Positions 2,215 to 60,086 of a stretch of 64,000 nucleotides of DNA are shown piece after piece. Each line of letters starts with the position of its first letter. Within the stretch, counting starts at the first letter, position 1. The position numbers were made by a program, and so were the translations under genes. Origin of the DNA: Cristatella mucedo (lineage: Eukaryota > Bryozoa > Phylactolaemata > Cristatellidae); the NCBI GenBank assembly GCA_009760855.2, contig WPIO01000066.1:1260501-1324500 (forward strand), read 5' to 3'. The notes below the pieces were generated by a model, which worked only from the letters and a program-made list of their open reading frames with translations, was not told the origin of the DNA and made no database searches.

Positions 2215-2637
2215 GTCGAACGATAATAATGCTAAGGGTTCTCTGAATACGCATTTTTTCCAGTCGCCTTCTCTCTACGTCGGAGTAGTAAATATACGAA
2301 AATTCGACGCAGTATCTATCTTGATGTATCAAGGTCAAATGCTGAGTGGTAAAAGATACATCGATCGTGTAGCTTCCGTCTCTGTTCTGAATGCATGTCG
2401 ACCGAATTTCATGCATCCATCTTCCACCCGTCATGCCAACATCTCGATATATACAGTTTGAGGATTTATTGCTGTCTAATTGTACTGATTGTAATCGTCT
2501 TTCTGCACCACACGGCTTGAAGCTGAACGTTAGCTCCACTGGGAGATCCATGTCGGTGCCAATAACTCTCACCCTAGCCGCTTCGCTTGACATCACATAT
2601 ATTTCGCTTGTTGGAATTGATAATGTGTAAGGAAAAT
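2215..2637 (-). CDS. Divergent Ig-like domain exon (LP type), minus strand
   Basis: Internal exon of 423 bp (141 codons), phase 1 at both ends. The acceptor is TTTTTAG just right of 2637 and the donor is GTAAGT at 2209-2214. The product begins DFPYTLSIPTSEIYVM, then has the strand motif DLPVELTFSFKP near residue 32, a cysteine pair spaced by 19 residues with MTGGRW between them, and ends in a G-strand-like stretch (RTLSIIIVR). DRYCVEF resembles an Ig F strand, but no partner B-strand cysteine is seen. It is the minus-strand relative of 44072-44494 (same length, shared TGGxW) and of 54651-55058 (shared DFPY start). Symmetric phase 1 exons are usual for extracellular Ig modules. The fold is inferred from pattern, not proven. 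No signal or membrane exon was found nearby. Confidence 0.6.
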
Positions 2638-3317
2638 CTAAAAACATGTAAATAAAGAAGCGTTTAGAGATCCATACATGAAACATATTTCCATTACAGG
2701 CCATTTTTCAAGATAAAATTGTCAGGGATAAATTGATGCTAGTACAGATATATACCTCTAAGTAATCTCTTTTCACTCCATAAACCCTTAAATTAAATTA
2801 TTTACTATGTTTAAGTTTCAATTTAAAATAAAGAATTATCTTTGCCATAAGGTTGATTGCATAAATGATTGCAGTCTAAGAAATGTTATACTGTATAGCC
2901 CAAATTATTTGCCTGATTTTCTAACTGCTGAATTGCACGAATTTTTTGGATCGCAGAGAAATTTACCTGAAATAAGTTTATGATAACCGTGACTGTATGC
3001 TATGACGAGTGCCTCTAACTAGCTCCGTTTCTCTAATGGAATCATGCAGAAAAGTTTGAAGCCGTTGAAAAATCATAGCCCTATACTTAGCGTTATTCAT
3101 CGGTGATACACTATATAATTTATTTTGCTTTGGCAAACCAATTATGTCTAAATTATTTGTATGCTGACCTTTTATGCATGCTGGTGTGAATCACTTGCTG
3201 GTACCTCCCTATTTTACCTTAAAAAATGTATTTATATGAATTATTAGAACCACATAAATTGCTTTATAAAAATGCTACTACTTGTTCAGTACTAGTAATG
3301 CAAGAAATTAAAGCATA
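2638..3317. other. Unassigned interval with one possible terminal exon
   Basis: AT-rich with no repeat match. On the minus strand an acceptor-like tract (ACTTATTTCAG) near 2966 opens a 26-codon frame to a stop, ending in LGYTV. This could be a terminal exon but is well within chance. Confidence 0.3.
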
Positions 3318-3743
3318 TTAGAATCCAATAGTTTACCAATACCTCGTACAAACCTCAAATCCTGCGTAGACCGTGAATTTAGTTCGAATGCTCCCAAAGC
3401 CTGGAACTCCCTCCTGACTTGCGTCAGAACATCCCCTGACTTGACAACATTTGAAAAGAACTTAAAAACGCACCCATTTAGTACAGCACTTATTGGGTCC
3501 CTGTGATTCGTCCTTCATGTGCTTTATTCGTGCTGACTCTGTACATGCTGCCACTAACCACACTTGCAAGCTGACTCTGAGCAAGTCACCCCTAACCATG
3601 TTGCTCATGCTGTTTATCAAGCATGATAATACTCACCATTCAATCGCATTTTTCAATGCAGCAAATTTAAAGCGCCTAGAAATGGATTGAGTTCTCTGAG
3701 GGCGCTTTAACAAGTGCGTTATTATTATTAGTAGTAGTAATCA
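3318..3743 (+). mobile_element. Family A LINE, truncated 3' end
   Basis: Starts in the C-terminal coding part (CCTCGTACAAACCTCAAATC), passes through the 3' UTR and ends with hairpin and ATT tail. 5'-truncated and broken by indels. Confidence 0.85.
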
Positions 3744-3777
3744 ATATTCGAATGCATTTTATTCGAAATTCCTAATA

Positions 3778-3852
3778 ATAATAGAAAATGTTATAAAGCG
3801 CCCTCATAGAACTCAATCTCTTTCTAGGTGCTTTACATTTTCTGTATTACAC
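3778..3852 (-). mobile_element. Family A LINE 3' hairpin, minus strand
   Basis: Minus-strand copy of the terminal hairpin only (AAAGCGCCCTCATAGAACTC). It lies ~35 bp from the end of the plus-strand copy at 3318-3743, so the two tails face each other and form an imperfect inverted repeat. Confidence 0.8.
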
Positions 3853-4565
3853 AAATTAAATTGTCCGATGGTAAATTTAAGTGGTCTTTTTGTGTTGAAC
3901 TATTTTTCATATTATGCGGTCAGTGAGAGAGATGATACAATTATTTAGGTATTTACATGCTTGAAGCAGTAGCTCAATGCAGTGTCTGAGCAATATCAAA
4001 CATCTGATTAGCTTGCAGAATAAATTAAACATTTGCAGGTGAACGTTTATTAATATGAACCAAAGAAGTCTTCGTATCCAAGTAATCACCCTAAGCTGCA
4101 GCTGGATAGAGGTTAAAAGAGGCTGTGAGTATCAGGCAATGTATAAAAAACTTTATTTGGAGCAAATGAATGCTTAACTGGGATATTGGATTTAGGTTCA
4201 GCATATCTGTTTGAAATTTATTTTTACAGCAAAAGCCTCCCATAAGTTTGAGCCGCCTACAGCTAAGGACTAAGACAAGGTCTTGAGAAAAGAACTACAT
4301 AGACTAAAATGGCCACAGCGTGTTTATCGGGGCATGCACGACTAATAAAGGGGAGTTTAAGACTGGTAAACTATGGACACATTTACTTTTATTATGCAAT
4401 CTGTGGGCAAACTTTGGAAGAAGAGACTAGCTCGTGAGCGAGACTAGGAGCTGTAACGGGTAATAACGTGTGAAGCTGATATTTGCGGGTTGTTTTCTTA
4501 CCCGTCATGCAATGCCTTTCTTTTTCACTGTTATTCAATGTAAGAAACGTATCTGCCCTAAAACT
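3853..4565. other. Unassigned interval
   Basis: No gene or repeat recognised. A 60-codon minus frame (3907-4089) is leucine and isoleucine rich but has no splice or start support. Confidence 0.4.
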
Positions 4566-5318
4566 GTTATATTAATGATAACGCACTTGTTAAAGCGCCC
4601 TCAGAGAACGCAACCTCTTTCTAGGCGCTTTACATTTGCTGCATTGAGAAATGCGATTGAATGGTGAGTAATATCATGCTTGATAAACAGCATGAGCAAC
4701 ATGGTTAGGTGTGACACGCTCCGGGTCAGCTTGCAATTGTGGTTAGTGGCAGCATGTACAGAGTCAGCGCGAATAAGCACATAAAGGACGAATCACAGGG
4801 ACCCATTAGATGCTGTACCAAATAGGTGCGTTTTTAAGTTCTTTTCAAATGTTGTCAAGTCAGGGGATGTTCTGACGCAAGTCGGGAGGGAGTTTCAGGC
4901 TTTAGCAGCATACGAAGTAAATGCATGGTCTCCAAAGGATTTGAGGTTTGGACTTAAGTTCAGACTGTTGATGCTTGGTTTAGACTCTTGGATTCCGAAA
5001 AGCAGGTGGTAAGATAGTTGGCCTGGTGGAGGAGTAGATCTGATAGATAGGCTTGAGCCAAAGCACCTATTGACCCAAAGGTTAGCTACAAAACCTTGAA
5101 GTAAATCCGTTGCTTCACTGGTAGCCAGTGCAGGTATGCGAGAAGTGGAGTGATGTGGCAACTGCAACGTTCATGACAGATAAGCCTAGGTGTGGAGTTT
5201 TGCAACAGCTGTAATCGGCTCATTGCACATGCCGGTAGGCCAGTAAGCAGTAAGTTGCAGAAGTCGAGACGGGATGTCACTAATGCATGGACCAACTTAG
5301 ACGTGGTATCCTTATCTT
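4566..5318 (-). mobile_element. Family A LINE, truncated copy
   Basis: Minus-strand copy from the hairpin at its left end back to the segment equivalent to TTSKLVHA of the best copy. A minus frame still reads KLVHALVTSRLDFCNLLLTG near 5.25 kb. 5'-truncated near 5318. Confidence 0.85.
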
Positions 5319-6329
5319 TACTAATACTGACGACCATATGTTTCAGCATGCTTAGCAGAACTAAATATGGAAAAAGAAATGAATATTTGTGCATGTGCAG
5401 CCTTTCCAGCTTATTGTAAACACACGGAAGCGTCATAAAATATGTCGGCTTATCAGGAGGCATCGGGTAGCAAAATAATGAGGAAAGCAATACAGTGAAC
5501 AATGTATGGGTGTTAAGTGCTTGAGGTTAGAGTGCAAGGGCTGCACATACGTGCTTTAAAAATCAGATGGACCTCGAGTTAAGATAGCCAAAGGTAAGCA
5601 CATTAGTTTTCAATAAGAGGCTCATACCACTGCTTCCTTACGAGTACCAACGATCAAAGTAGGGACTGTCATGATTACGGAAAGGCTAAAAAATTATACT
5701 TTAGTTAATATTCTAACGATAGCTAAGCATTGCTCCAGCGGGTTTCTTTAAAGCAGAAAAGATTCTGATCTGTTATCAATGCTAGACGAGAATATAAATA
5801 AATGTTAGTTGTGTAATTAGGATTGTCAATTTTTCTCAAAATTTTGGCGATGACTGCGGCCTTCTGCCACGGGATAGAACTGTGGACCGTAACATCAAGC
5901 ACTCTTCGGAACTGATCCTTGTGCCATGGCTAATTGAGTTAGCAAGACTGATACATGCATAGAACCCAACAAAAGACAAAGATTATTCTCGTGAATTCTA
6001 ATCATAATCGAACTGCAATCAGCACTAGCGAGCACCAAGTGAATCTAAAAGTACTTCATAAATTGGTGATCATCCATATATCAGATGACTTACGGAGCCA
6101 GAGGGAATTACTTCGCTAGCTATGTTCGGCCTGGTTTAGTAGGTTTAACCTAGCTTACATTCATGCAGGCTGCCAGGAACAGGCCGCCACACGGCAGCCA
6201 TATGACTGTCACTCGCTCTTAAAGTCATCTGCTGACCTTTTAGAGATAAAAATTAGCACACTCCATAAACGCCACTCTGTGACCCGGTCATTCAAAAATT
6301 ATCACTACTACTATTACTAATAAAGATAT
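5319..6329. other. Unassigned interval
   Basis: About 1 kb with no repeat or gene I can name. A GTAAGC donor-like site occurs on the plus strand near 5593, without a convincing exon. Confidence 0.4.
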
Positions 6330-6382
6330 TTATATGTTTTTACAGCGCCCTCAGAGAACTCATTTTGGCACTTTACATTTTT
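6330..6382 (-). mobile_element. Family A LINE 3' hairpin fragment
   Basis: About 50 bp matching the hairpin in minus orientation (CAGCGCCCTCAGAGAACTCA ... CTTTACATT), preceded by ACTACTATTACTAATA that may be a decayed ATT tail. Confidence 0.65.
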
Positions 6383-6769
6383 CTCTGAGCAAGGGTGACT
6401 AATAAACATGAATAGCTGGGTGGTTTTACATCCTACAAATAAAATCCAGGCATTCTCATCGATACAGATTCATTTGATGACTACTTGCCAGCAGAAGCGC
6501 CGAGGCGAAACAGCATCTATATTTACAGTTAAAATAAAAAATATAATCACAAAATGTCATGTCACTCAGGTTGGCGAATTTGTTGCCTGTAGTAGTTTGA
6601 ATTCGCTGAGAGGATAGCACTTTTCAAAAGATAGAAATAGACATCATCCGCAAAGGAGAGAAGGGGAAGAAAATCTATATGGTCATATTTCTGCTTGCCC
6701 TATATTAATAATGAGGTAGTCTTCATTTGAAAGGCATGTCTTTCTGAATTACTTATTACGTAAATCCAC
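6383..6769. other. Unassigned interval
   Basis: A 69-codon plus frame (6408-6617) is present but shows no recognised domain or splice support. Confidence 0.35.
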
Positions 6770-7425
6770 TGGATCCTGATCGATCATGCGATTGACTTCA
6801 AGGTTTTCTGGCACTCACGCTTAGGTGCTTTCATTCTCTTTCTTACAGTCATACCTATCAGATCTACTCCCCCAACAGGCGTGGCAAGGCAACACCTACT
6901 TTTGTGAATCAGATCGTTTAGCTACACCTCGTAGTAACCTCACGTGATTTGTAGACCGTGCCTTTACTTCGCATGCACACAAAGTCTGGAACTCATACCC
7001 GCTCAATGTAACAACATCATCTGACTCAACAACGTTTAAACAGAAACTTAAACGCACCTATTTGAAATTGTGAAATCATTAGCATATCGTATCTTGCCTG
7101 GGCATTGCAAGCAATGTTTGAGGTCCATCTCAGAGTCAGACTCAAGGAATTCCCTTAACTCATTTAAAAAGAATGAGAAAACACGCCTATTTATGGCAGC
7201 AGTTAGTGGGTCCCTGTGATTCGTTATGTACGTGCCTATGGGTGTTCACACTGCCAGTAACCATATTTGCATGCCGACCGTGTGCAAGCCACCCCTAACC
7301 ATGTTATTCTTGCTGTTTATTCAGCATGCTACCACAAACCATTCGACCGTGCTTCCTTTGCAGAAAATGTAAAGTGCTTAGAAAGACGTTGAGCTCTCTG
7401 AGGTCACTATAAAAAATTTATTTTG
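6770..7425 (+). mobile_element. Family A LINE relic, 3' portion
   Basis: Begins at the equivalent of RIDFKVLSLTFRSL (CGATTGACTTCAAGGTTTTC), has a duplicated or rearranged stretch around 7050-7190, then 3' UTR and a decayed hairpin with a lost stem (CTCTGAGGTCACTATAAAA). Confidence 0.75.
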
Positions 7426-8464
7426 ATAGTTATAATTATGAATTGGCAGCCTAAAAGTAATAAAAAATCGTAATTGACACTCAAAAATAGCAGGTTTATA
7501 ATTCAGACAATAATATTAATATGCAGAAGTACAGTAACAGACGAGATCTAGATCTTCATCTAAAGTATTACCAATGCTGGTGAAAATGCCAGCTGCCCGA
7601 TCTTAAAGTTTGAAAAAATCTTTCCTTTGAGCTTACAGCCAAATAATGAATTCACAGTGGCATCTCACCCTGGTGCCGACCATTCAATACAGCTCCTACT
7701 ATTAGCATTTATAGAATCGCATGACCGTTTTCTTTCACCGTCAAAACAATAAAGAGCTTACAATTTCATTATGCGACAAGAGTATTCGAATTCTCAAAAT
7801 GATAATGTCATTGTGAAAAGGAGACCTGTCGTAATTAAGTCTGTCTCTCTCTCTCTCGAAGATAAAGAGTACTATTCATAAACAGTATGCAATGAAGCAA
7901 AGTGTATGTTTATGTTAAGTTACTCACTTAAAAACCTTATGAATCATGTTCAGGAGCTTGCTTTTGAGTGGTTAAGAAAATATTCTAGTGTTGTACAGTC
8001 TCGCTATCAGTTTAGAGCTACTTATATTCTATAGGTTAAACATTACGGTAAATGCATTACCTAAAAAGTGCAAACTTTTCTATGACTGTAATAATGATAA
8101 ATCTTCAAGTGCGTTTAATCTGAAGAGTTTAAATAAATGCATCGTCTAGATTTTTTAAGCTTTTAAAATGATACGTGTTTGCTTTGAATCTAACTGGCGT
8201 CTTTATTGATCACTATTTTCCGACGATTATTTCTCATTAAATTAATCGGAAAGTATAAAATCTACGTAAATTTTAATATTACGTGTAATTTTTAGAATTT
8301 CATATGTGCTTAAAAAGAATCTAGATAGTATCGTCGATGATACAGAATGTTTACTGCCTTTTGAATTCAATTATAAGTATTTTACAGTAGCCTCACTTAA
8401 AATAAACAGAGCGAAAAACGTCTCATCCTAAACAGATAAATTCGCAATGGTTCTTGTTACTTAC
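7426..8464. other. Unassigned AT-rich interval
   Basis: No repeat match apart from a short CT run at 7845-7857. No open frame worth reporting. Confidence 0.4.
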
Positions 8465-8512
8465 CTGGAAAGTTATTGGCCACACCACTAGGCATGAGCG
8501 CTCCAGGTGACC
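8465..8512 (-). CDS. Candidate 48-bp mini-exon
   Basis: A 48-bp segment with very good splice borders on the minus strand: acceptor TATTTTTAG on its right and donor CAG|GTAAGT on its left. In phase 1 it reads SPGALMPSGVANNFP without a stop, and 48 bp is a multiple of three, matching the phase 1-1 habit of the Ig-like exons on the same strand (15041-15430 upstream and 2215-2637 downstream). It could be a linker, stalk or tail exon. Chance occurrence is possible; only transcript data would decide. Confidence 0.35.
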
Positions 8513-14317: not shown

Positions 14318-14352
<35 letters not shown>

Positions 14353-14479: not shown

Positions 14480-14760
14480 TGCTGTTAAAAGTGCAGCATT
14501 TACTTAAGCCACCTGGAGCTACGGTTAACCTGTCGTTTGATGGCCCCTATTGTAGGCTGGATATTGAAGGTGGAATATATGAAGTGGCTAAATGTAGAAA
14601 AATTGTTCATGGGGCAAAAGACATATCGAGTATATTTATTTCTGAAATTGGCTATAAAAGCTTGTTTACAGCTGAAGCTGTGAAGCTGACAGCTGATTTT
14701 CTGTTTCGTGCATCCACTCAACAAATTTACTTGATTAAAGCAACAGTACTACTTAGGGAG
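14480..14760 (+). CDS. Partial or degenerate LP-type Ig-like exon, plus strand
   Basis: The acceptor TTTCTTTTAG ends at 14479 and a donor GAG|GTAAAT follows 14760. The product reads PPGATVNLSFDGPYC, corresponding to the LP strand motif of its relatives, then a second cysteine after 13 residues rather than 18-20, and closes with the G-strand-like IYLIKATVLLRE. The exon is ~281 bp, shorter than its relatives at the N-terminal side, and would end in phase 0 instead of phase 1. It may be a truncated, possibly dead, copy. It points toward the minus-strand exon 15041-15430, 280 bp away, so the two form a convergent pair. Confidence 0.45.
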
Positions 14761-15040: not shown

Positions 15041-15430
15041 TTTCTACAACATCAACGATGAATCTATCTCCAACATCATCGTTCTCTGCCTTTATCCTGC
15101 TAAAAAAAGTCAAGTCGAACGAGTACTCTCCTGCGATGCTGCTTGTTACCTCCTTGGTTATAGAAAGAACGCTTGCATCGTACTGGTTGAGGCGCTTTGG
15201 TGTGCAGAAAACTCTCTGTTTAATAAACATCATCTCGGCATTAAATTTTTCAACACATTGGCAAGGCACAGTTGGTTCCACCTCGCATAAATACATTTGA
15301 CTTTTTGAACCTGAAATCCATCTGTTGATTGATAAGCGAGCTGGTAAAGTGATCTCTTTTAACTGGGCTCGCATGCATCCTCGGTTTCCCACAATTAACT
15401 TCATGTTTTGAGCCACCAAATGCTTTTGAG
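15041..15430 (-). CDS. LP-type Ig-like exon with possible GC donor, minus strand
   Basis: 390 bp, 130 codons. The acceptor is a long T tract ending TTTTAG at 15431-15432, phase 1. The product starts QKHLVAQNMKLIVGNRGC, has TLPARLSINRW near residue 32, a cysteine pair spaced by 18 residues, and SIAGEYSFDL, an Ig F-strand-like stretch whose cysteine is replaced. It ends DRFIVDVVE. A phase 1 end, matching its relatives and giving a whole number of codons, requires the donor GCAAGT at 15035-15040, a GC-AG intron. The alternative GTACAT two bases farther on would end in phase 2. The IVGNR block echoes VVAGNR in 44072-44494. Confidence 0.55.
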
Positions 15431-26917: not shown

Positions 26918-29031
26918 TGTATGTCGTACCAATCGATCCTAGCAAAGGCTAAGTCTAGCTTCTATAGAAACATTGTTGAATCACAGATGCACAATCCAAA
27001 AATGCTGATGTCGACAATAAACCATCTCCTCAACCGTTCCCAGGTTAGCTCCTTACCTGATGATCCTTGTGATGATCTAGCCGATCGCTTCTCTCGATTC
27101 TTTGTGCAGAAGATAGACAAAATCAGGGAATCCATCCCTGCGATGACAACCTTCCCACTAGAATGCTGTTCCTCGGTTCCTGGCTGCGCCTCAATGTCTG
27201 CATTTAAACAGGTCACTAGTGATGTAGTCCTAAAGCTCGTATCTCAATCAAAGAAGAAAACAAGTCCACTGGACCCTATTCCCACTGTCCTGCTCCTACG
27301 TTGCATTGATCTGCTGCTGCCATGCATAACCAACATCATTAATATGTCATTAGCCTCAGGTCAGGTCCCAGCACCTTTCAAAAAAAGCTGTAGTCAGGCC
27401 ACTTCTCAAGAAAGCTACACTAGACCAAGAGAACTTAAGCAACTACCGCCCAGTCTCCCTTCTACCATTCCTATCAAAGACACTGGAACGGGTCGTGGCA
27501 GACCAGCTGAACTCGTATATCGAAACCTCACACCTTGCTAGTAAGTTCCAGTCTGGCTTTAGAGCTAATCACTCCACAGAGTCAGCATTGCTTCGGGTAT
27601 ACAACGACCTACTTAGGAATGCAGACATGGGTAGAGTGTCTCTTCTTGTTTTGCTCGATCTTTCGGCAGCTTTTGATACCATCGATCACAAAGTACTTCT
27701 AGAGCGCCTCTCATCTCGCCTGGGCATCACTGGCACTGCTCTGCATTGGTTCAGGTCCTATCTCAGTGGGAGACTCCAGAGTGTTGACGTGAATGGACAG
27801 AGATCATCTGAAGTACCTCTAAAATATGGAGTACCTCAGGGCTCTGTGCTAGGTCCGGTCCTTTTCACCGTTTATACTCTCCCTCTCGCTGATGTGATTG
27901 CCAAGCACAATCTAGGCTTTCACTTCTATGCAGATGACACTCAGTTGTACCTTTGCTTTGATCTCTCCCAGCCTTCGAGCACCTCAAATTCTCTCAACTC
28001 ACTTGCTGCATGCATTGATGACATCCGATCATGGATGGCAGCAAATTTTCTAAAACTTAACGATGATAAAACTAACTTACTAGTTATGGGCAAACCTAGT
28101 GTTATTCAGAAATTGGAAAGGCTGACTTTCAAAATTGGCTCTGCCAGCATATCTCCAGTTGCATCAGCTCGAAATCTAGGTGTCATATTCCAAAGCGACC
28201 TCTCGTTAGACGACCACATCAGCTCCACAGTCAAATCAGCCTATTTTCAGCTTCATAACATTGCTAAAATTAGGGCTTGTTTAGATAAGGATACCACGTC
28301 CAAGTTGGTCCATGCATTCGTGACATCTCGTCTCGACTTCTGCAACTCACTGCTTACTGGCCTACCAGCATGTGCGATCAGGCGATTGCAGCTGGTGCAA
28401 AACTCTGCAGCTAGGATTGTCTGTCGTGAGCGTCGCAGTTGCCACATTACTCCACTTCTCGCCGACCTGCACTGGTTGCCAGTCAAGCAACGGATTGACT
28501 TCAAGGTTTTGTCGCTCACTTTTAGGTCTCTTTATTCTATGGCTCCAGCCTATCTTTCAGATATACTACCCCATCAGGCAAAGCATCGTACCACTCGCTT
28601 TTCGGAATCCAACAGTCTAGAAATACCTCGTACAAACCTTAAATCCTTTGGAGACCGTGCATTTAGCTCGTATGCTCCCACAGCCTGGAACTCCCTCCCG
28701 ACCTGCATCAGAACATCCCCTGACCTGACCACATTTAAAAGAAACTTAAAAACATACCTATTTAGGACAGCATTTAGTGGGTCTTTGTGATTCGTCCTCG
28801 ATGTGCTTATGCGTGCTGACACTGTTCATGCTGCCACTAACCACATTTGCATGCTGACCCAGTGCATGTAACCCCTAACCATGTTATTCATTTTGTTTGT
28901 TTGTCAAGCATGATTTTACTTACTATTCTATTGCGTATCACTTTGCAGCAAATGTAAAGCGCCTAGAAAGAGATTAAGTTCTCTGAGGGCGCTTTATCAA
29001 GTGCAATATTATTATTATTATTATTATTAAC
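26918..29031 (+). mobile_element. Best-preserved family A LINE (RT region to tail)
   Basis: 5'-truncated L2/CR1-like non-LTR retrotransposon. It encodes the reverse transcriptase that copies element RNA at a nicked target. Two frames remain: 26921-27541 covers the pre-RT region, and 27495-28790 (431 codons) covers RT motif A (LLVLLDLSAAFDTIDH), motif B (GVPQGSVLGPVLF), the catalytic FYADDTQLYL and the C-terminal region (LLADLHWLPVKQRIDFKVLS). They are separated by a frameshift in an A run at 27380-27386: seven As here, six in the older copy near 21730. The endonuclease half is absent. 3' UTR, hairpin (AAAGCGCCTAGAAAGAGATT ... GGGCGCTTTATC) and (ATT)n tail complete it. Being the least decayed copy, it is probably the youngest here; still inactive. 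Confidence 0.92.
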
Positions 29032-32690: not shown

Positions 32691-32940
32691 CGACCGAATG
32701 CTGGCTGCTCCTCACTTCAGCAGCTGTTTCAACTGCCTCCTGCTGCTGCTGTGCCAAAATCGATAAATCACGGATTGTCTATTACTTTGCTAAAAGGTAA
32801 GAGTACAGGTCGATGACAAGGAGTCAACCGGTCAAACCAGGATGAGTGGCATGCAGTGCAAGCTGTCCCAGAGCTGCAGTTTCCTCTCTTTCACCACCAG
32901 CTCTCATTTGCTGCTGCCATTGTCTATGCTTAAGCTTGCT

Positions 32941-33500
32941 TCATCCCAGCACGGCTAGCACGGTCGTCTGCCCTTTGCCCAGCGGCAGGTGCAGGGGTCC
33001 CTGCAGCCTGTGGCTGCTGTAGGAGAGGACCTCCTGCAGCAGCTGCCCAGTCTCTGCACTGAGCACCCTCACACAATCCCTGTCTCCCCACACAGCCACG
33101 TACAGAAGGCGGCCTGCAGCATCATACAAGTACCGGCTTCTCGGCTCAAGTTTCAACTGCCTGTCACATCGGTGGCAGTAGCTGGCCACCATATATAGCT
33201 CTATGCAGTCTTCAAGCTTCGCCATGCCATCGCTCGTAGTGACCAGGGTAGCAGCAGTGAGAGCCACACTATCTCATACTCGTACTTGCTGCTGTCCAGC
33301 AGCCGCACCGTGCTCAGCTGCAGCAGCTGTAGCCCTGGGCCAAAGCGCTCAATCGCAGCGAGCAGGTCGCCGAGCACTCTCAGCCTCCTGGAAAACCATG
33401 GCAGCACAGCACAGCGACACTTGTGTCCACGAGCCACTGCGAGTGCCTTGCAGCCGCAGCAACAGCAGAGCTGCGTCTGATGCCGAGCCGTGAGCTCAGG
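32941..33500 (-). pseudogene. GC-rich gene fragment, possible beta-propeller, frame broken
   Basis: Two minus frames join end to end across a one-base shift within 33201-33267. The first gives VLGDLLAAIERFGPGLQLLQ and SSKYEYEIV. The second gives LYVAVWGDRDCVRVLSAETG, QLLQEVLSYSSHRLQG and ends at a stop at 32941. The repeated short beta-strand style resembles NHL or WD-type propeller blades, but this is a guess. Base composition differs from the AT-rich surroundings. A SINE (33537-33722) sits immediately upstream. It may be a degraded gene, a processed copy or exons with an unseen intron. Confidence 0.35.
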
Positions 33501-33536
33501 CCTACAGCAGCAGCTCGTCGAGCACAGATGATGCTG

Positions 33537-33722
33537 TGAGCCGTGATGGCACACCAGGTAAGGTGGTTGCTTTCATGACCTTGGTCCTGAGGTCGTTGGT
33601 TCGATTCCTGCGGTGGGCGATCCTTTATAGCCACTGCAAGTGGTGGTGACAGCCGTCAAGGCTCTTTTGTCGCTATACAAAAAGAGGCTGTTTAAGCAGC
33701 TAGGATTTATTTATTTATTTAT
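33537..33722 (+). mobile_element. SINE S2
   Basis: Head GTGAGCCGTGATGGC ..., box B-like GTTGGTTCGATTCC, body CGCTATACAAAAAGAGGCTG and tail ATTTATTTATTTAT. It lies antisense within the GC-rich minus-strand gene-like tract. Confidence 0.88.
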
Positions 33723-33822
33723 GACGTCTGAGCAGCAGGACGAGATGTGAGTAGAGCAAGCCTGCTACCGGAGCAAGTTAATCCTCCAGAGATCGCACTG
33801 CAATGACCGAGTCGTCCTCTCT

Positions 33823-34025
33823 CTAGCTCTGCCTCGCACGTTTCCAGGAGCTCACTTTCCTGCTGCTCTCACTGCATTCCTTCTTGACACACTCTCTGGC
33901 AGCCAGCAACTGATGCTCCTCTGACGTCACTGACAGGTCACAGTAAGGGACACCAGACTGGAAGCTGCTGGAAGCAGGGCCGAAGTACTGGCCTGGCTTC
34001 TCTTCTGCAATAAAGAACGCCGGAT
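33823..34025 (-). CDS. Candidate terminal exon of an unknown gene
   Basis: Minus-strand exon with acceptor TGTATTTACAG at its right edge, phase 1, running to a stop at 33823. It reads PAFFIAEEKPGQYFGPASSS and GVPYCDLSVTSEEHQLLAAR, then a basic, serine-rich end. It joins in frame to the exon at 34103-34235 across a 77-base intron, the shared codon being A|AT. No family recognised. Confidence 0.4.
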
Positions 34026-34102
34026 CTGTAAATACAGGCAGCAACAGAGAGCTGTGTGTGTAGAGATTGTCTGCTCTCTAACTTGAATGCCTGAATACAT
34101 AC

Positions 34103-34235
34103 TATTCGTTATGTTAGCGATGGCAAGCATGGCTGACTGAGTGCTGCCATACTCTGTAGGTATAGTAAAATCTGCTAGGACACCAAAGCTGCCTAAGTCG
34201 TGTATTATTTCAAGTAAAATATGTCCTTTCACTTG
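34103..34235 (-). CDS. Candidate internal exon paired with 33823-34025
   Basis: Acceptor TTTTTGTATCAG at the right and donor A|GTATGT at the left (intron 34026-34102). Phase 0 start, phase 1 end. It reads KGHILLEIIHDLGSFGVLAD and then FTIPTEYGSTQSAM. The phase match with the next exon supports it, and both lie in the GC-richer tract. Product unknown. Confidence 0.4.
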
Positions 34236-34995
34236 CTGATACAAAAATTGTGGCTGACGGATATACAGCTCATCACTATTCACGTGGTTTGGCATAACCA
34301 CTTTCCAGTATTGTTTATTATGTCAGTGACGTTTCTTAAATATATGATACTCATGCACGATGGTGCTCAAGTTGGCAGTTCGTTGCTCAGTCCTAATTTT
34401 CTTGCTATAATAAATTAAAAAATGAAATATTACTTTTCATTGCTTGCCTGTACTGTAAGCAACATACTTGGCAGCATTTTCAGCTTTACAAATGTGACCC
34501 TTATCTCCCTCGCTCACTTTTAATACCAAGCTGAATCACAGTGGCTAAAAAAGTGATTGAAAAGGAAAGCCACACAGCCCACCCACAGTCTCGTCACCGA
34601 CACATGCAATTACGCCTTACCAAATGAGAGTGATCATAAATGCACAGCTATGCATAATTACATGAGACCCCGTTAAGTGCTTAAATAAGCTGACATCCAG
34701 TTATAAGATACTTTTGGTGTGAATGCAGAAGCAAGCAGACCATTGTTCAAAATATGAATAAAAAGTGAGCAGTAAGGCTGAATCAGGGAGATTAGAGGAA
34801 ACAAATTATCAGTAATGAAGTGATAGTTCAGCATAGCTCAGAACAGTTGTGCAGTCAGCTGAAGGACCGAACACAATTAGACTTGTGGGACTCAAACAAC
34901 CCAGTGACTCAATCAGACCATTAGTTTTTAACAACCGTAGCAGTATAAACCTATTTTAACCGTAGCAGTATAATTTGACATGCCTGCTGCTTCAT
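34236..34995. other. Unassigned interval
   Basis: No repeat match. Further upstream exons of the minus-strand candidate gene would be expected here, but none was identified with confidence. Confidence 0.35.
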
Positions 34996-40063: not shown

Positions 40064-40216
40064 AAGGCGGTTGCTTTCACGACCTCGGTCCCGAAGTCGT
40101 GGGTTAGATTCCTGCGGTGGGCGATTCTTTATTGCCACTGTAAGTGGTGGTGATAGCCATACAGGCTCTTCTGTCGCTATACAAAAAGAGGCTGTTTAAT
40201 CAGCTAGGATTTATTT
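40064..40216 (+). mobile_element. SINE S2 with perfect 15-bp target-site duplication
   Basis: A 5'-truncated S2 copy (body CTATACAAAAAGAGGCTG, tail GGATTTATTT) flanked by AACAGCTCCGCCCCT at 40049-40063 and again at 40217-40231. A perfect duplication of this length is the mark of target-primed retrotransposition and shows a comparatively recent insertion. Without the SINE and one repeat, the minus-strand frame 40211-40567 continues through LLVRGGAVVCLLGVAVM to a stop. Confidence 0.95.
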
Positions 40217-40700
40217 AACAGCTCCGCCCCTCACAAGCAGGTGGTAATAGATGCTGCCCACCCTTAGGAGAAGGTGGGGCACCACTGCCACTGTCAGGCG
40301 GTTCCCACAGGTCACCTCTGGGTGAGCCCCGATGACCGGTCTCATGGACTGTTTGCCGGCCGTTCCGGCCCTACGAGAAACACTCCAGCTCATTACAGCC
40401 TCGTCGTTCTCGGAGTTCCACTCTGCAGAGCCGATCTCGCGGTTGTGCTGCTCTGCCCTCTGCACTGAGACCCTCGCCGGGTGCTTTTCCCGCCGAAACG
40501 CTCTAGCTGATGAGCTTGGCTGCAGCGAAGCTCTCGCTGCTTTGCTCGCAGGCAGCCTTCGCCTCATCGAAGGCTACTATGGCCTTGCAGCTGACAGCTA
40601 TCTTGAGGCGCTCCTCTGTACTCTGCCCCGAGATGCTCGTACAGTTGCCTCTCTACCAATGAGAAGCTATAGCTGCTCCCCTCCAACTGGCCTTCCAGTC
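40217..40700 (-). pseudogene. Gene-like tract broken by frameshifts and a SINE
   Basis: Minus-strand reading frames in a GC-rich tract. The part nearest the SINE reads RPVIGAHPEVTCGNRLTVAV and VPHLLLRVGSIYYHLLVRGG. Further upstream, in another frame, STEERLKIAVSCKAIVAFDE and AKAACEQSSESFAAAKLIS are readable before a stop. The helical second block has a TPR or SNAP-like flavour, not enough for a family call. A plus-strand frame of 191 codons (40332-40907) is open over the same bases and could be the true one. No splice sites resolve it. Confidence 0.3.
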
Positions 40701-40907
40701 AGCTCACCAAATTCTGCCTGCCATAGGCAGGCTGCGTCTTGTCAAGGGGAGCCGGCCTGCTATGCCGTGTGCCCAGGGAGAGCCAGTGTGCAGCGGCTGT
40801 CACCACCAACTGTTGGATCAACTGATGGATACATAAGGCTAGGCCCAGCTGGCTGTACTTACTTGTCAAAATCGCCAGAGCTCATACAGTCCGCGAAGAG
40901 TTGTTAA

Positions 40908-41268
40908 TGTAATGTATGTATCTCCGTCAGTAACTCCATAAAGTCATAAAGACCATGTGGGTGTTAGGCAGGAGAGTTTTGTATAGCATACTCACAGCCT
41001 AAGCAGCTCTCGGTACGCATTCGGTAGCCAACAGACTTCGTCTCACGCAACAAAGAGAAAGTGGGAAGCATAGCAGAGTCAGGAGAGCAGTTGAGGTAGT
41101 GAGTAGCATAGAAGTAGCAGTTCAGGACAGCTGAAAAAGATGTGCCATAGTCGGCAGTTGGAGAGTAGATGTCGTTGCGTAAGAATTGTGGAAGCGAGTT
41201 TCACAGTCTAGGACCTGCAGAGCTAAAGGTTCTGTCGCCAACTGCCTTTAAGCAGAGGAATGGGACAG
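40908..41268 (-). mobile_element. Family B LINE 3' end, minus strand
   Basis: Closely resembles 34996-35400: GTATCTCCGTCAGTAACTCC, TTCGGTAGCCAACAGACTTC, GGAATGGGACAGCT. Ends abruptly at 41268. Little decayed. Confidence 0.9.
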
Positions 41269-43745: not shown

Positions 43746-44071
43746 AAAAAATTACTGGCTTTTTTCCAAAGACTTTTAAAATTTGTTTAAGACTAATCGC
43801 TCCCTAGGTCAGTTTTTATAAAAATATTGCATTCTTTTTTCTCTATTTTCAAGGGTACTAAAAAGCATGTTTAATACTGCTTGAGAACTCTAAAGCATAA
43901 TAATATTTTTAATAATTATTTTATAACGTTGCATTTTCATATAAATAAAATTGACTTGCTTTTTTGTAGGACAGGAACAGTACAGGAATTGAGATTACTT
44001 TAAATGAATGTTAGCAGAAACAATTGCCCTAAAGATTATTTTGCTAATTATAAGTTTTAAATTAATTTTAG
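43746..44071. other. Unassigned AT-rich interval
   Basis: Sequence leading to the next acceptor. An ATG at 44008 opens a hydrophobic run (MLAETIALKIILLIISFKLI) in frame with the Ig-like exon that follows, so an unspliced signal peptide is an alternative to use of the acceptor at 44071. Confidence 0.4.
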
Positions 44072-44494
44072 ATGCAACGACGATTACAGTTGTAGCTGGA
44101 AACCGTGCCATGTTGACGTTTCAATATCATCGTGTACGGTTACCGGCTACTGTTATAGTCTATCGCAGTGGTGAAATCCCAGAAATATCAGTTTCTTTGG
44201 GGCAGTACAGAATCTCAGACGAATCTAATGGCTGCAAGCTCGATGGTGTGATGGACACAGGAGGAACATGGTTCTTCAGACAATTATATTTTTGTTCTGC
44301 AAATCCAAAAGAGAAACTGGAGACTTTTAACAGGCACGATGTAACTATAATCGTTATTACAACTAGGATTACTCTCGACTATCCAAGATGGTTTGCAATT
44401 GAGTTGATCCCTCCGTTTTTGATTTATTTTGGGCCTAGTGGATTCGTTCAAGATATTGCTAAAAAAGAAGTTTTTTATCTAAAAGTTCTAGATG
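44072..44494 (+). CDS. LP-type Ig-like exon, plus strand
   Basis: 423 bp, 141 codons, phase 1-1. The acceptor is TTAATTTTAG and the donor GATG|GTAGGT. The product starts ATTITVVAGNRAMLTFQYH, has RLPATVIVYRSGEIPE, a cysteine pair spaced by 19 residues enclosing MDTGGTWFF, then RHDVTIIVITT and RWFAIELIPPF (Ig F-strand-like without its cysteine), and ends EVFYLKVL. Its length and TGGxW block make it the closest relative of the minus-strand exon 2215-2637. An in-frame ATG 64 bases upstream opens a hydrophobic stretch, so it could also be a first exon carrying its own signal peptide. A family A LINE begins 430 bp downstream. Confidence 0.6.
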
Positions 44495-52773: not shown

Positions 52774-52985
52774 GTAAGCTTCAATGAATGTTATTGTTTT
52801 TTTGGTTGTGCCATGCAATTCAGCAATAGCTTAACGAGTACTAATGCATTAAGGCTTTCTTTAAGTTTCTTAGTGTAATGCCACAGTTTGCTTGGAGTAT
52901 GCTGTGTGGTTTCAACATTCTCTGTGACTGCTTGCAGGGGTTTAAAGGACAGCTGACATATTGCTTAAACTTTAGGAGAGTTGTT

Positions 52986-53168
52986 GAGCCGTAATGGCTC
53001 ACTAGGTTCAGTGGTTGCTTTCCACGACCTTGGCCCCGAGGTCGTGTGTTCGAATCCTGTGGTGGGCGATCCTTTACCACCACTGCAAGAGGTGGTGATA
53101 GCCGTAAAGGTTCTTCTGTCACTATACAAAAAGTGGCTGTTAAATCAGCTAATATTTATTTATTTATA
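52986..53168 (+). mobile_element. SINE S2, full-length head
   Basis: Best example of the S2 head: GAGCCGTAATGGCTCACTAG, GTGGTTGCTTTCCACGACC and box B GTGTTCGAATCC, body CACTATACAAAAAGTGGCTG, tail ATTTATTTATTTATAT. No clear target-site duplication. Confidence 0.9.
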
Positions 53169-54650: not shown

Positions 54651-55058
54651 ATTTTCCTTACGAGCTGCACGTGGAACCACGGGATATTATCATGAAGGAA
54701 CATGGGTTCGCTAAATGGAAAGCGACAGTGTCGTTTATTGAATTGCCAGTGACTATACGCATTGAAAGGAAAACTGATGGGTTATTCGTCGGAGGCGGAG
54801 TTATTATTCGTGGCAATCCTTGCTTGTACTCAGTTTTCAATTCGTCTCGAGTATTTGAAATTCAGAAGGAGGTGCACTGCTCAAGAGATCAAGAGCCAGA
54901 AGTATACAGATTAGAGATAAACGCCACACATTCCAGCTTGTTGATCCCTGACAGCAGTAGTTACACGTTGGGATTATTTTACCCATCAACTCGCCGAAAT
55001 TCATCTTCTTTATTAGACAAAGTAGTTGAAGTAAAGTTCGGAATCACTGTTGTTAAGC
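54651..55058 (+). CDS. LP-type Ig-like exon, plus strand
   Basis: 408 bp, 136 codons, phase 1-1, with acceptor TTTTTTGCAG and donor AAGC|GTGAGT. Begins DFPYELHVEPRDIIMKEHG, sharing DFPY with 2215-2637, then FIELPVTIRIERKTDG, a cysteine pair spaced by 18 residues (PCLYSVFN to EIQKEVHC), EVYRLEINATHSSL, SSYTLGLFYPS and the closing VEVKFGITVVK. No canonical Ig cysteine pair. One N-glycosylation-type site (NATH) fits an extracellular domain. A family B LINE end lies about 50 bp after the donor. Both splice sites match consensus and the frame is open, so it looks functional. Confidence 0.65.
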
Positions 55059-55107
55059 GTGAGTATTCTAACTGATCAGCTAAAGCTTTAGCATCTCTGT
55101 TAGGAAA

Positions 55108-55350
55108 TAGTGTATACGGCACATCTTTTTCAGCGGTCCTGAACTGCTACTTCTATGCTACTCAATACCTCAACTGCTCTCCTAACTCGGCTACGCTTCC
55201 CACTTTCTCTTTGTTGGGTGAGACGAAGTCTGTTGGCTACCGAATGCGTACCGAAAGCCGCTTAGGCTGTGAGTGCGCTATACAAAACTCTCCTGCCTAA
55301 CACCCAAATGGTCTTTTTGACTTTGTGGAGTTACTGACAGAGATACATAA
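55108..55350 (+). mobile_element. Family B LINE 3' end
   Basis: CGGTCCTGAACTGCTACTTC through GTTGGCTACCGAATGCGTAC and CTCCTGCCTAACACCCAAAT to GAGATACATAACATAAC, the tail. 5'-truncated. Immediately downstream of the Ig-like exon. Confidence 0.88.
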
Positions 55351-56467
55351 CATAACGTTTAAGTCTTGGAATGTGTACTAGAAACTATGAAATCGTCGTT
55401 TTAAGCATTGGTGTTACTTTCGCCCCTTTAGTCCTTGTACTCCAGCTCTATGAAATTGTACCACGCTTTCCATAGCATAGAACCTTAATGACATCTACTG
55501 ATATTCTAGGAACTTATGTCAAACGGTCAAACTTGAAAGTGCGCTAGAATATGTGCTAATAAATATCCAGATACGCATGCTTATCGCTAGGTTGTACATT
55601 GACAGTCATGGATTATTGCGAACTTATTTCTGAAATTATACTTGGCCTCATCGGCTACTAAAATTACTTGAGCATATACGTTCAAGCAGGATCTGCGGAT
55701 TCATCAATACAAGCTATTGGGTTTCTCAAAAAAACTCTCGCAGTTTGATAATTGTAAAGTAAGACCTTATTTTTTCCATTCTCACCAAATCTTTTCACAC
55801 TGTCTTCCATGGCAGTATACTTTTAGTTTTGGGTGAATATCAATTTATTTCTTATTTCGTTTTGAAATAACAAATACATTTAGTTGGGGGCCAGTTAATT
55901 ACAAGAGTGATGGACAGAAACAGATGACACATCATGATGGTCGATCATCTCATTCCAAATGTCGGCCTAAACAAAAAGAGCCGGCAAGGCTCCCGCTTAC
56001 TTAATTCGTTTGGGATTCATTAATGTTTTTGCCGAATCCTTGAACCAATACTAGAATAAGTGTTGGCTAACACTATTTGAGTCTTGTATTTTCCAATTAG
56101 TGTAACGAATTCTTAACCTTTCTATGTCAAGAAGGCACTTAAAGGAATGGGTGCCTAGTGGGTATTTTCGTAAAGTATCTTGGGAACGAGCTGGATTAGT
56201 GATGCCATTCTAAAAGTTTCTTTGAAGACGAATTTGCAAAAATATTTGATGTTTTTTCCTGAAACGATCAGATTCCGTCTCCAAGTGTTCATGCAATGCT
56301 GATTGCTACTTACATTTTACTGTATATCTTTCTAATTTTGAAGAGCGCTGAGGTATAATTTTACTATTCCATCGCATCGAATCTGTAGATACTAATTCCT
56401 ATCCAGTATTAAGTTAACGGGGTTTAAATAAATTTATCCGGGTCGTGAAGTAGTTCCGTTTACTTAC
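55351..56467. other. Unassigned interval
   Basis: No gene or repeat recognised. Confidence 0.4.
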
Positions 56468-56549
56468 CATTCATCCTAGCTGGTATCCAGTCAGAGGTTT
56501 CCTGGAGATCTTTGCTTTGGCAGCTGATCTGATAGGTTAACAACTTTCT
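56468..56549 (-). CDS. Candidate 82-bp exon, minus strand
   Basis: Acceptor AATTATTCTGTAG and donor AATG|GTAAGT. Only one frame is open: RKLLTYQISCQSKDLQETSD then WIPARMN, phase 0 start and phase 1 end. Product unknown; it lies opposite the plus-strand Ig-like series. Confidence 0.3.
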
Positions 56550-57129
56550 CTACAGAATAATTAACTTAGGATGGATGATATGTATGGTCTTAAGCATGCC
56601 ACAGTGAAAAATATAAATGTTGAGGTCAGGATGATAGCCTTAAAAGTATAGCACTGGTAGCAACTGAGGGGCATCACCTCTTGATTGTAAGACCCATTAT
56701 TTATCATATAGTTTTTGTGAAAACCAACTTACTAAAACAAGGGGCAAGAATACTGGGTGAACGGAATTGAAATAGACAGATATATATTTTTCTGAGATTT
56801 AATAATGCAAGGTTATTGTAGGAGCTGACCGTACCCATAAGTGAGCTTCATATTCAAGGCTGATAGGATCCGGAGGCTAGGTCGGTAAATCGTGCATTGT
56901 TGTGTTAGTATTGGTGACGGATTGAGATTAAGTGAAGCGAAATTTGCGAAAACATCCTGAAGAAGCAATGATCGTGGCTTTGATAGGCTTGTGTCAATGA
57001 AGTAGCCATTAAGCTATTGTCTGAAAAACGAATTGATGCATCATAGAGGGGAAAATTAGGTCAGAGACTGAAGAGATCTTCTCCCCAACTAGGGCGAGAA
57101 TCGTGTAACCCACTTATCGGAACCATTGA
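56550..57129. other. Unassigned interval
   Basis: No gene or repeat recognised. Confidence 0.4.
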
Positions 57130-57490
57130 GGCATACCTCGTACAAACCTCAAATCATTTATAAACCGTTCCTTTATTTCGCACCCTCCCTGGAACTTACT
57201 TTCAACTTGCATCACTAAATTTCTTGACTTGACCAGAAGAAGCTAAAAACGCATCTATTTATCACAGAATTTATTGAGTCCTTGTGATTCACAACCTACG
57301 TGCATTTTGGTTAAACCATTCTTGCATGTTGATCCTATGCATTTCACCTGTAACCATGCTATCTATGTTATTTACTATGCTTGCCTTAACTAACAGTTCG
57401 ATCCTGCTTCCTTTTCAGCAAATATAAAGCAACATAGAAAGACACTGAGCTTGAGTTCTCTCAGGGCGCTATATAGAATGTGTTTTATCG
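57130..57490 (+). mobile_element. Family A LINE relic, 3' end
   Basis: ACCTCGTACAAACCTCAAAT, shortened coding end, 3' UTR (TTGTGATTCACAACCTACGT) and decayed hairpin; tail lost. Confidence 0.78.
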
Positions 57491-58139
57491 TAATGATTTG
57501 CTGTCCGTGATCATGCTTTTTGAAGCAACTCAGTCATTCATCTTGAAAAGACAAGATAACACATTCTGCATCATTTGACAACTTCTTAAAGGCAACTAGT
57601 ACGTAGTTGACTCAAAATATACGAGACACTTAATTTCCTATTAAATCTAGTCCTAATTGCAAAGGGCAACAGGTGGATTTTCGAGGCTGCATTGGCGTAC
57701 TTGTTCAATTAATCTTCAGCACGATTATTAAAATTTTTCCAAAGCTTGGTACTCATTTTTCTACTCAGTGTAGAGAGCTAGTTGAACGTGAATTATACAA
57801 TTGTGCCGGCACTCATCAACATGGCATCCTCTCGACTTAGATTCTTAGCAGTGAATTCCACTACATTTCTCTTTATTGTTACTCCACAATGCTCTAAAAC
57901 TGTTTCATCGATTCGACCATGCTAAAAAACAGTGCACTAACCAAATATAGAAACAAGACCCACCTTGATCGTCGTTTTATCCGTAGACTCAGAAGAATTT
58001 ACTTTCTGTCTCTGTTGTGTATCGGCAAACAAACAAGCAAAAGGTGACCGCTCTCTCGAGTTTTCCTTCGATTGTGGAAATTGTTCTGTATCTCGTTTCT
58101 TCGTGAACACCATTTTTGCAATTACGCTCTTACAGTCTA
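57491..58139. other. Unassigned interval
   Basis: A 69-codon minus frame at 57937-58146 (serine and lysine rich) is unsupported. No repeat match. Confidence 0.35.
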
Positions 58140-58690
58140 CGCACAACTCTGCAGCTATGATTTTCTGTACTGAGCTTCACATGCGCCCCATCACTTCGCT
58201 ACTCGGCGACCTGCACTGGCTTCTGGTCAAGCAGGGCAGCTGCTTCACGGTTCGGTCCTCACTTTTAGATCCCATCAATCATGGACTTCTACTAAGCTAT
58301 CTGGTCTACTCCTACACTAAGCTAACCACCGTACCACACACTTTTTTTAATCGAATCGTTTACCTATGTCTTGTACCAACCTTAAAACCGTTGAAAACGA
58401 TTCCTTCAGTTCATATTATCACTAAGCTTAGAACTAATTACCTTTGTTCGTTACAGGGTCCCTGAATTGATGGCATTTAAATAAAAAGCTTAAAATGCAC
58501 ATGCTTATTGCAACATTCCGTGGGTCTTTTCGATCCATCGTTCGTGTGCATGTATCTGCTTGGGGACATTGCAACCAATAATATGGTTATGCTTTCTATA
58601 TAGCATCTTCACAGTGCTTACAATAATATAAAACTTTCCGAAAGCGCCATGCAGTTGTATTACTGTTATTATTATTATAAGGTTCAATAG
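58140..58690 (+). mobile_element. Family A LINE relic, C-terminal part
   Basis: CTCTGCAGCTATGATTTTCT and CACTTCGCTACTCGGCGACC correspond to NSAARLVC and ITPLLADLHW; TGGGTCTTTTCGATCCATCG marks the 3' UTR; ends near an ATT run at 58666. Confidence 0.75.
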
Positions 58691-58814
58691 ATGCATAGTT
58701 ATATTCTAAGATTTCCATTAAAAGGATTTATCGTTGACGTAATTGCTTTTGGACCGAGTTTCATAAAGTGAAAAAGCGTTTCAAAGTGAGACTTGGCATT
58801 TGCTAAGATAGATC

Positions 58815-59098
58815 AGTCATCCTAACACACTTATTTAGGACAGCATTTAGTGGGTCCCTGTGATTTGTACTTGATGTGCTTATGGGTGCTGACACTGTGC
58901 ATGCTGCCACTAACCACATTTGTATGCTGACCCTGTGCATGTCACCCCTAACCACATTATTAATTTTGTTTGTTTTCAAGCATGATTTTACTTACCATTC
59001 AATTGCATTTCACTTTGCAGCAAATGTCAAGCGCCTAGAAAGAGATTAAGTTCTCTGAGGACGCTTTATCAAGTGCATTATTATTATTATTATTATCC
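58815..59098 (+). mobile_element. Family A LINE 3' UTR and tail
   Basis: From CACACTTATTTAGGACAGCA through the 3' UTR to an almost perfect hairpin (AAGCGCCTAGAAAGAGATTA) and (ATT)n. A young-looking 3' end. Confidence 0.9.
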
Positions 59099-59484
59099 TC
59101 GCAAGCTTTTGATATACACTCAGTACTGATATGTGTATGTCATTTCATACTCAAGCTAAGTAATTCATGCTAGTTTAATGTCGGACACTGGCTATAGCCA
59201 TTTTTTGAGTGGGTGCAGGATGTGTAACTCTGGGTGGAAAAGTCTTGCAGAGCTTCATATGAGTAAAGGTAGAACGGCTAATATTCGCAGTTGCCACATC
59301 ACATCACTTCTCGCCAATCTGCACTGGCTCTGTTTAAACAAATGTAATCTGTAGAGCCGTTCGATTGCTGGATAATTTATTTCGGAATTCTTTCAAGATT
59401 TTCTGTAGTAATCTTTCTTGAGCCAATTACTCTTGTTATTCAACCTTCTGAAGAGGCTCAAATGAGTAGCAAAGGTATCTTGGG
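59099..59484. other. Spacer with a 50-bp family A scrap
   Basis: Positions 59286-59335 (CGCAGTTGCCACATCACATC) match the HITPLLADLHWL segment. The rest is unassigned. Confidence 0.45.
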
Positions 59485-59600
59485 TAATAATAATAATGTA
59501 CTTGATAAAGCGCCCTCAGAGAACTTAATCTCTTTCTAGCCGCTTTACATTTGCTGCAAAGGGAAATGCAATTAAATGGTAAGTAAAATCATGCTTGAAT
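59485..59600 (-). mobile_element. Family A LINE 3' end, minus strand
   Basis: TAATAATAATGTACTTGATA, hairpin and GCAAAGGGAAATGCAATTAA. It ends ~100 bp before the acceptor of the next exon. Confidence 0.88.
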
Positions 59601-59702
59601 CGATGAATCATGCTGTAATCGTTGCTAACCAAAATCCAAGCGAAGGCTCCCCACACTATGCTGTAGGTGTCGAACTATCACCAGCTATATTTTATTTTTC
59701 AG

Positions 59703-60086
59703 ATTATTGCAATGCTTTAAATTCAACCAGAGAAAGTCTATCCTATGTCTCCAAAGTTGGAGATACACTGCACATCAACTGCTTGGCATTCTGCTACCCC
59801 AGCAACGCCAGTGTTGTCGTCGGCATTCAATCGTACGAAACTGACAATGCGAGCTCATTTGGCATCCACTGCGATTCGGGGAAGCTGCATTTGGATAGAA
59901 GCCAAGGCAGGTTCGCCACGTATAAGTCGGACTGCTCCCGCGTTCTGCAGCACTTTCCCAGCCGAAGCAGGCTCGGGGTGCTGTTTGTGTTTGAAAAAAT
60001 TACAGCTCTCATGGAAGGAGACTATGGATGCTACACCCTCGCATTCGGGCAACGCACGGCTTACTCATTTAGGATTTATGTCCAGA
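59703..60086 (+). CDS. Ig V-like first domain exon of a multi-Ig gene
   Basis: 384 bp, 128 codons, phase 1-1. Acceptor TTTTATTTTTCAG and donor CAGA|GTAAGA. It reads SKVGDTLHINCLAFCYPSN, then ASVVVGIQSYETDN, a cysteine pair spaced by 20 residues, and GVLFVFEKITALMEGDYGCY, ending YSFRIYVQ. GDTLHINC (B strand) and the GDYGCY F-strand motif form the canonical Ig cysteine pair; the other pair matches the LP-type relatives, so this is the family member that still looks like an ordinary Ig domain. One potential glycosylation site (NAS). Followed after a 185-base intron by a phase-matched Ig exon. The signal-peptide exon was not found upstream. Confidence 0.7.

Follow-up and report, generated by a model that had tools for sequence, protein, structure and literature searches.

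A clustered family of putative membrane receptors with a conserved non-canonical cysteine pair in the bryozoan Cristatella mucedo

Putative receptor genes in and around the window

The stretch of DNA analysed here (the window, 64,000 nucleotides, positions 1260501-1324500 of contig WPIO01000066.1, hereafter C624) belongs to the 572 Mb genome assembly (688 contigs) of the phylactolaemate bryozoan Cristatella mucedo and carries exons for immunoglobulin (Ig)-like domains, six of which a preliminary description had assigned to one divergent family. We read 242 kb of C624, window included, and traced in it five receptor genes, A to E, exon by exon (Table 1). The window itself holds the D1 and D2 exons of gene A and the exons of gene B from D1 to C3, the two genes lying head to head. 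Because exon order and phase agree, the exons were joined into genes, for which the plan D1-D2-(V2)-V-C2-C3, transmembrane (TM) helix and cytoplasmic tail is proposed, with splicing presumed between the exons. All 23 Ig exons with set splice sites (genes A-D and D1 of gene E) have lengths that are multiples of three and a phase-1 frame free of stops. Genes A and C both have a V2 exon, and a third copy was found beside a D2 at 980 kb; none was found in genes B or D. The C2 domain is a CD80-like C2-set_2 domain in the three genes tested with Pfam (A, B and D).

Four genes (A-D) end in exons that encode a hydrophobic TM segment and a tail with its stop codon. The tails of genes A and C are related, rich in Lys, Ser and Ala, and extend 470 and 201 residues beyond the TM, while that of gene B is Ser/Thr-rich (237 residues) and that of gene D Pro-rich (67 residues). 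Tyrosines after the TM number 0, 1, 2 and 0 in genes A, C, B and D; none precedes x-x-I/L/V, and no immunoreceptor tyrosine-based inhibitory or activation motif (ITIM, ITAM) was seen when the four tails were read by eye.

Table 1. Exons of the five receptor genes and one excluded reading frame, in window numbering extended both ways (negative positions lie to the left of the window)
Feature	Position	Strand	Remarks
Gene A D1	15041..15430	minus	predicted non-canonical V-like Ig, pair C56/C75 (x18), phase 1-1, GC donor
Gene A D2	2215..2637	minus	predicted non-canonical V-like Ig, pair x19, plus second cysteine pair
Gene A V2	-3628..-3344	minus	left of window
Gene A V	-6606..-6241	minus	left of window
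Gene A C2	-7036..-6722	minus	left of window
Gene A C3	-11499..-11227	minus	left of window
Gene A TM/tail	-19340..-17848	minus	left of window
Gene B D1	44072..44494	plus	pair x19, two cysteines only
Gene B D2	54651..55058	plus	pair x18, two cysteines only, F strand DSSSYTL replacing DSGxYxC
Gene B V	59703..60086	plus	separate V-type Ig, canonical B-F pair and accessory x20 pair
Gene B C2	60272..60589	plus	CD80-like C2-set Ig, Pfam C2-set_2 24.3 bits (cut-off 21), phase 1-1
Gene B C3	61615..61884	plus	membrane-proximal Ig-like domain, no Pfam match of its own
Gene B TM/tail	71618..72432	plus	right of window
Gene C D1	-35130..-34732	minus	
Gene C D2	-41491..-41078	minus	
Gene C V2	-45017..-44733	minus	
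Gene C V	-49198..-48836	minus	
Gene C C2	-49665..-49351	minus	
Gene C C3	-56149..-55892	minus	
Gene C TM/tail	-66130..-65442	minus	
Gene D D1	97396..97773	plus	
Gene D D2	104744..105151	plus	
Gene D V	110708..111091	plus	
Gene D C2	111278..111595	plus	
Gene D C3	114626..114895	plus	
Gene D TM/tail	116920..117224	plus	
Gene E D1	130306..130683	plus	
Gene E D2	138068	plus	open reading frame
Gene E V	140594	plus	open reading frame
Gene E C2	141467	plus	open reading frame
Gene E C3	150012	plus	open reading frame
Excluded frame	14480..14760	plus	outside family; short frame in gene A D1-D2 intron, opposite strand, phase 1-0

Coordinates, strands and frames of the six exons first described were correct in every case, and the cysteine spacings given for the five full ones (x18 to x20, Table 1) were found again. 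AG precedes all six and GT follows five; the 15041 exon ends at a GC donor (gcaagt), and this donor after D1 is common to genes A and C (15041 and -35130). The acceptor of the 44072 exon is weak, and its open frame extends upstream to an ATG at 44008. The phase 1-1 described as constant holds for five exons, the sixth (14480, 281 nt) ending in phase 0.

Family membership and cysteine pattern of D1 and D2

Pairwise Smith-Waterman comparison of the six exons against 500 shuffles gave a clear signal for 15041-44072 (z 8.6, no shuffle as high), and lower ones for 2215-54651 (z 3.5, 4/500), 2215-44072 (z 3.3, 7/500), 2215-59703 (z 2.3, 19/500) and 15041-59703 (z 1.7, 29/500). The same test gave no signal for 59703 with 54651 or 44072, or for 54651 with 15041 or 44072, and z did not exceed 0 in any of the five pairs that include 14480. 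On in-window sequence alone the family is only partly above chance. A leave-one-out profile recovered 15041 at E 3.6e-4, 44072 at E 6.8e-4 and 2215 at E 0.13, the last outranked by one unrelated open reading frame (ORF), and 54651 was not among the best 8 matches listed.

A profile of the four exons that carry the LP strand motif (15041, 2215, 44072 and 54651) found two more exons in the C624 flanks, at E 2.9e-22 and 3.8e-18. We then compared a hidden Markov model (HMM) of 18 exons, none of them from the window, with the 1,929 ORFs (at least 45 codons) of the 242 kb, and it returned the four LP exons of the window at E 1.1e-23 (2215), 6.4e-23, 5e-20 (54651) and 5.7e-15 (44072), the best ORF that is neither D1 nor D2 following at E 0.2. 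Family membership is settled for these four since a model from outside the window finds them. The 14480 and 59703 ORFs were not among the 16 matches listed, so that of the six-exon family first proposed these two drop out. The 59703 exon is also the one that keeps an ordinary B-F cysteine pair, absent from the other four, as had been stated. The 14480 ORF was rejected as a member: it has no similarity to the other exons, and its length is expected by chance, frames of at least 114 codons (its own length) occurring on average 6.4 times in 60 dinucleotide shuffles with two repeat stretches excluded, against 32 observed in the window, a figure that includes transposon frames.

Profiles of D1 and D2 are related (hhalign, 96.5%, P 8.7e-10), and no relation to V was detected by the same comparison (D1, P 0.3; D2, P 0.13). 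All D1 are separated from all D2 with 99% bootstrap when the 22 exons are placed in an unrooted tree, for which reason the D1-D2 unit is probably older than the gene duplications; a rooted check gave D1 as non-monophyletic, an effect of root placement. Taken together, D1 and D2 almost certainly form one family with an Ig fold.

The 22 D1/D2 exons were aligned, and the positions of the B and F cysteines were set by motif (Gly+7, Tyr+2). The first cysteine of the pair stands in the same column in all of them, the second in 20 and two columns earlier in the other two. The two cysteines are spaced by 18 or 19 residues in 19 exons; two others have a spacing of 15 and one of 16. The pair provides the sole cysteines of the aligned sequence in 16 exons, and in two more the extra cysteine probably lies past the domain end. 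A canonical B or F cysteine is absent at the motif-placed positions in 22 of 22. In D2 the F-strand motif DSGxYxC has its final Cys replaced by F, Y, L, M or V (DSGNYSF, DSGTYYL, DSGIYEY, DSGSYRF, DSGTYKM and similar), and the F strands of D1 are less regular. D2 of genes A and C carry a cysteine immediately after the F-strand Tyr and are the only exons with an extra pair in columns 42 and 120 (end of the C strand, F strand); another extra pair, columns 53 and 68, is confined to D1 of the same two genes. Gain and loss of bridges would seem to go by pairs. In genes A, B, C and D the V domain has the B and F cysteines together with a second pair, spaced 21, 20, 21 and 20 respectively.

Structure models of D1/D2 show an Ig sandwich with the strand order A' B C C' C'' D E F G, which is that of a V-set fold, and their structural matches include CTLA-4 entries and one ICOS entry. 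D1 and D2 are predicted to be V-set domains without the B-F disulphide, from which the canonical pair would have been lost; the conserved pair would instead hold them together by an accessory bridge that links the C'' region with strand D. None of them reaches the gathering cut-off of V-set PF07686 (26 bits), a single member of the 22 being listed at E 0.077. Profile libraries miss the family because only the accessory pair is kept and the canonical one is absent.

Genomic extent, divergence and searches of databases

Counts from the genome search are lower bounds. The 44072 exon as query found 8 places, all on C624; 15041 found nine, of which one lies elsewhere at E 9.98 and the eight on C624 include two D2; 54651 found eleven, nine on C624, one on contig C652 that a profile confirmed as D2 (E 9.7e-14) and one dismissed at E 0.96. 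Of the 15 places matched by the V exon, nine lie on C624; C652 has three and C99 has one, these at E 0.002-0.003, and two are weak. Between 980 and 1,706 kb C624 bears at least 12 D1 and at least 11 D2 places, including exons of genes A and C that were read directly; two of the D1 places (1108048 and 1160340) are counted from the search match alone. A second site of the family lies on C652 (about 1311245-1552733), with a D1 (ORF 1333797-1334405, minus), a D2 (1325725, minus) and three V-type matches. Other dense groups of Ig_2 matches are found on C332 (14.16-14.72 Mb), C111 (10.42-10.82 Mb), C174, C634 and C166, and arrays of Fibrinogen_C matches on C177 (0.47-0.89 Mb), C166 (4.60-4.75 Mb) and C668 (1.08-1.24 Mb).

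The closest pair of genes, A and C, is identical at 41% (D1), 44% (D2), 57% (V2), 52% (V), 56% (C2) and 59% (C3) of positions, with dN of 0.55, 0.48, 0.43, 0.40, 0.35 and 0.32 in the same order. Between B and D, dN is 0.90 for D2, 0.66 for C3, 0.62 for D1, 0.56 for C2 and 0.55 for V. In A-C, then, the distal domains are somewhat faster, and in B-D only D2 stands out. Synonymous divergence could be computed for 9 of the 23 comparisons (dS 1.9-4.0, always above dN) and was saturated in the remainder. Judged by these rates the receptor genes look constrained; positive selection is not shown and was dropped as a reading, dS being computable in so few comparisons and large.

The spliced protein of gene B had no match at E <= 10 in the protein database (2,755 candidates scored), nor had the alignment of four exons (419 scored), in a search that requires shared 5-residue words and similar length. 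As a control, the reverse transcriptase of the window matched 7,902 of 7,983 scored sequences at E <= 0.001, several of them fish UniRef entries, so the database does hold animal sequences. PDB sequence searches gave nothing at E < 0.05 (best 0.063, poxvirus protein OPG185). Titles and abstract beginnings returned by literature searches contained no account of a D1/D2 receptor family, although this does not prove that none exists. The reverse transcriptase belongs to long interspersed nuclear elements (LINEs) at 27354-28790 of the window and in other copies; it is 43-55% identical to its best 120 database matches, many of the named ones from fish and none near-identical among those listed, so that this protein set may lack the species. 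Stretches 32900-34350 and 40200-40910 of the window are GC-richer with long ORFs, and those scanned had no Pfam match over the cut-off. In all, ten ORFs of the window besides the receptor exons were scanned with Pfam, none with a match over a cut-off. Rfam searched at gathering thresholds gave no match, and no tRNA was found by a scan.

Known receptor families and possible roles

Each named receptor family tested departs from the C624 genes in at least one defining feature. VCBPs are secreted proteins that carry a chitin-binding domain after their V domains; four genes here have a TM and tail, and the Pfam matches of the scanned exons include no chitin-binding domain. Members of the CD28 family have a MYPPPY-type loop, and the accessory bond of CTLA-4 is also present in CD28 and ICOS. 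The accessory disulphide of CTLA-4 is Cys48-Cys66 in human and Cys46-Cys65 in zebrafish (PMC12092003). CD28, CTLA-4 and ICOS resemble the predicted D1/D2 fold in being V-set domains whose accessory disulphide is similarly spaced, but CTLA-4 also keeps the canonical pair (Cys21-Cys92), whereas D1/D2 keep the accessory pair only and so lack the combination of both that marks the CD28 family. The Alr family of Hydractinia comprises 41 genes for Ig proteins, which lie in one complex and whose V-set and I-set domains are unusual (PMC11999971), and is, like the C624 receptors, a large clustered Ig family; the ITIM/ITAM motifs reported on Alr candidate genes (PMC12065747) are absent from the four tails here. 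The fester co-receptors (FcoR) of Botryllus are type I proteins with V, Sushi and two C2 Ig domains, TM and a long tail; they bear a core tyrosine motif or ITIM/hemITAM, and haplotype clusters encode them (PMC12065747). Compared with their single V and Sushi, the C624 receptors have D1-D2-V, with neither Sushi nor such a motif found, and their V and C2 exons in genes A-D are only 115-186 bp apart.

The family, its exon order and phase, the hydrophobic TM segment, the conserved pair and the clustering are observed, and the explanation we favour, at somewhat better than even chances, is that the genes form a clustered multigene family and encode type I membrane receptors in which D1-D2 serve as recognition head. 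The products are very probably membrane receptors, presumably at the cell surface, and it is slightly the better bet that D1/D2 serve distal recognition by binding ligands. D1-D2 would be the two membrane-distal domains forming the ligand-binding head, each acting as a V-set domain that binds ligand and owes its stability to the accessory bridge, with V, C2 and C3 as stalk; binding might cluster receptors at cell contacts, and the tail, lacking ITIM/ITAM in genes A-D, could act by way of an adaptor, by serine phosphorylation or by anchorage to the cytoskeleton. Several points weigh against this explanation. Gene E has no convincing TM exon in the 242 kb read, and no exon for a signal peptide was recognised, although none was looked for systematically. 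Confidence of the structure models is low (54651, AlphaFold2 predicted local distance difference test 46.2) to middling (15041), Foldseek with the D1/D2 models gave no match at E <= 0.001, and Pfam returned for the 22 exons only one V-set (E 0.077), one 'ig' (0.14) and one Ig_ZP2_N (0.049) match. The outside-exon HMM is partly circular for 44072 and 54651, which were baits for some of its training exons (five D1 found by 44072, seven exons by 54651, two by the four-exon profile); 15041 and 2215 served as bait only inside that profile. Rapid current diversification is not shown because the paralogues are old.

That the exons are chance ORFs or decayed pseudogene exons gathered by a motif hunt is extremely improbable: 14480 is such a case and the in-window statistics are weak for 2215 and 54651, but the outside-exon HMM, an exon order that five genes share, dN values lower than dS wherever both could be computed, and conserved splice sites, including the GC donor of genes A and C, contradict it for four of the six exons. 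Scarcely more credit is due to secreted lectins of the mollusc FREP/VIgL type with only the Ig part inside the window. The tandem V-type pair recalls the 2-IgSF FREPs of snails, in which IgSF1 and IgSF2 are distinct V-type Ig domains in tandem (PMC7588048), but FREPs end in a C-terminal fibrinogen domain, whereas the last exon of each of the four genes encodes TM and tail up to a stop codon and none of 52 genomic Fibrinogen_C matches falls on C624 or C652, and this identity was rejected.

An immune or allorecognition role of any kind is less likely than not. In the form of a complex like Alr of Hydractinia or FcoR of Botryllus, whose polymorphic self/non-self head D1/D2 would be, it is rather doubtful; a cluster of type I Ig receptors whose distal domains are V-like and divergent fits it, with Alr (PMC11999971) and FcoR (PMC12065747) as points of comparison, but ITIM/hemITAM are absent from all four tails and the V-C2 gap in genes A-D leaves no space for Sushi. 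About as unlikely is an undescribed receptor complex, a single-locus, haplotype-like array for self/non-self or pathogen recognition in which a C''-D bridge stands in for B-F and core strands are freed in the distal V-domain head, all these elements being judged jointly. A developmental or neural adhesion family, nectin- or CD80-like, homophilic or heterophilic and tandemly duplicated without immune or self-recognition role, is a possible but minority reading that agrees with the CD80-like C2 of genes A, B and D, the four tails without ITIM/ITAM, the age of the paralogues and dN below dS; at least 12 copies in a single array, divergent distal domains and differing tails would nevertheless place the genes closer to recognition families. 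The observation first made on the window is confirmed in part, and its interpretation as Ig-like recognition domains partly supported. The 22 clustered domains, all of which keep only the accessory pair, offer a natural experiment on a V fold moving its bridge, and if the array is polymorphic it would be a candidate allorecognition or immune locus.

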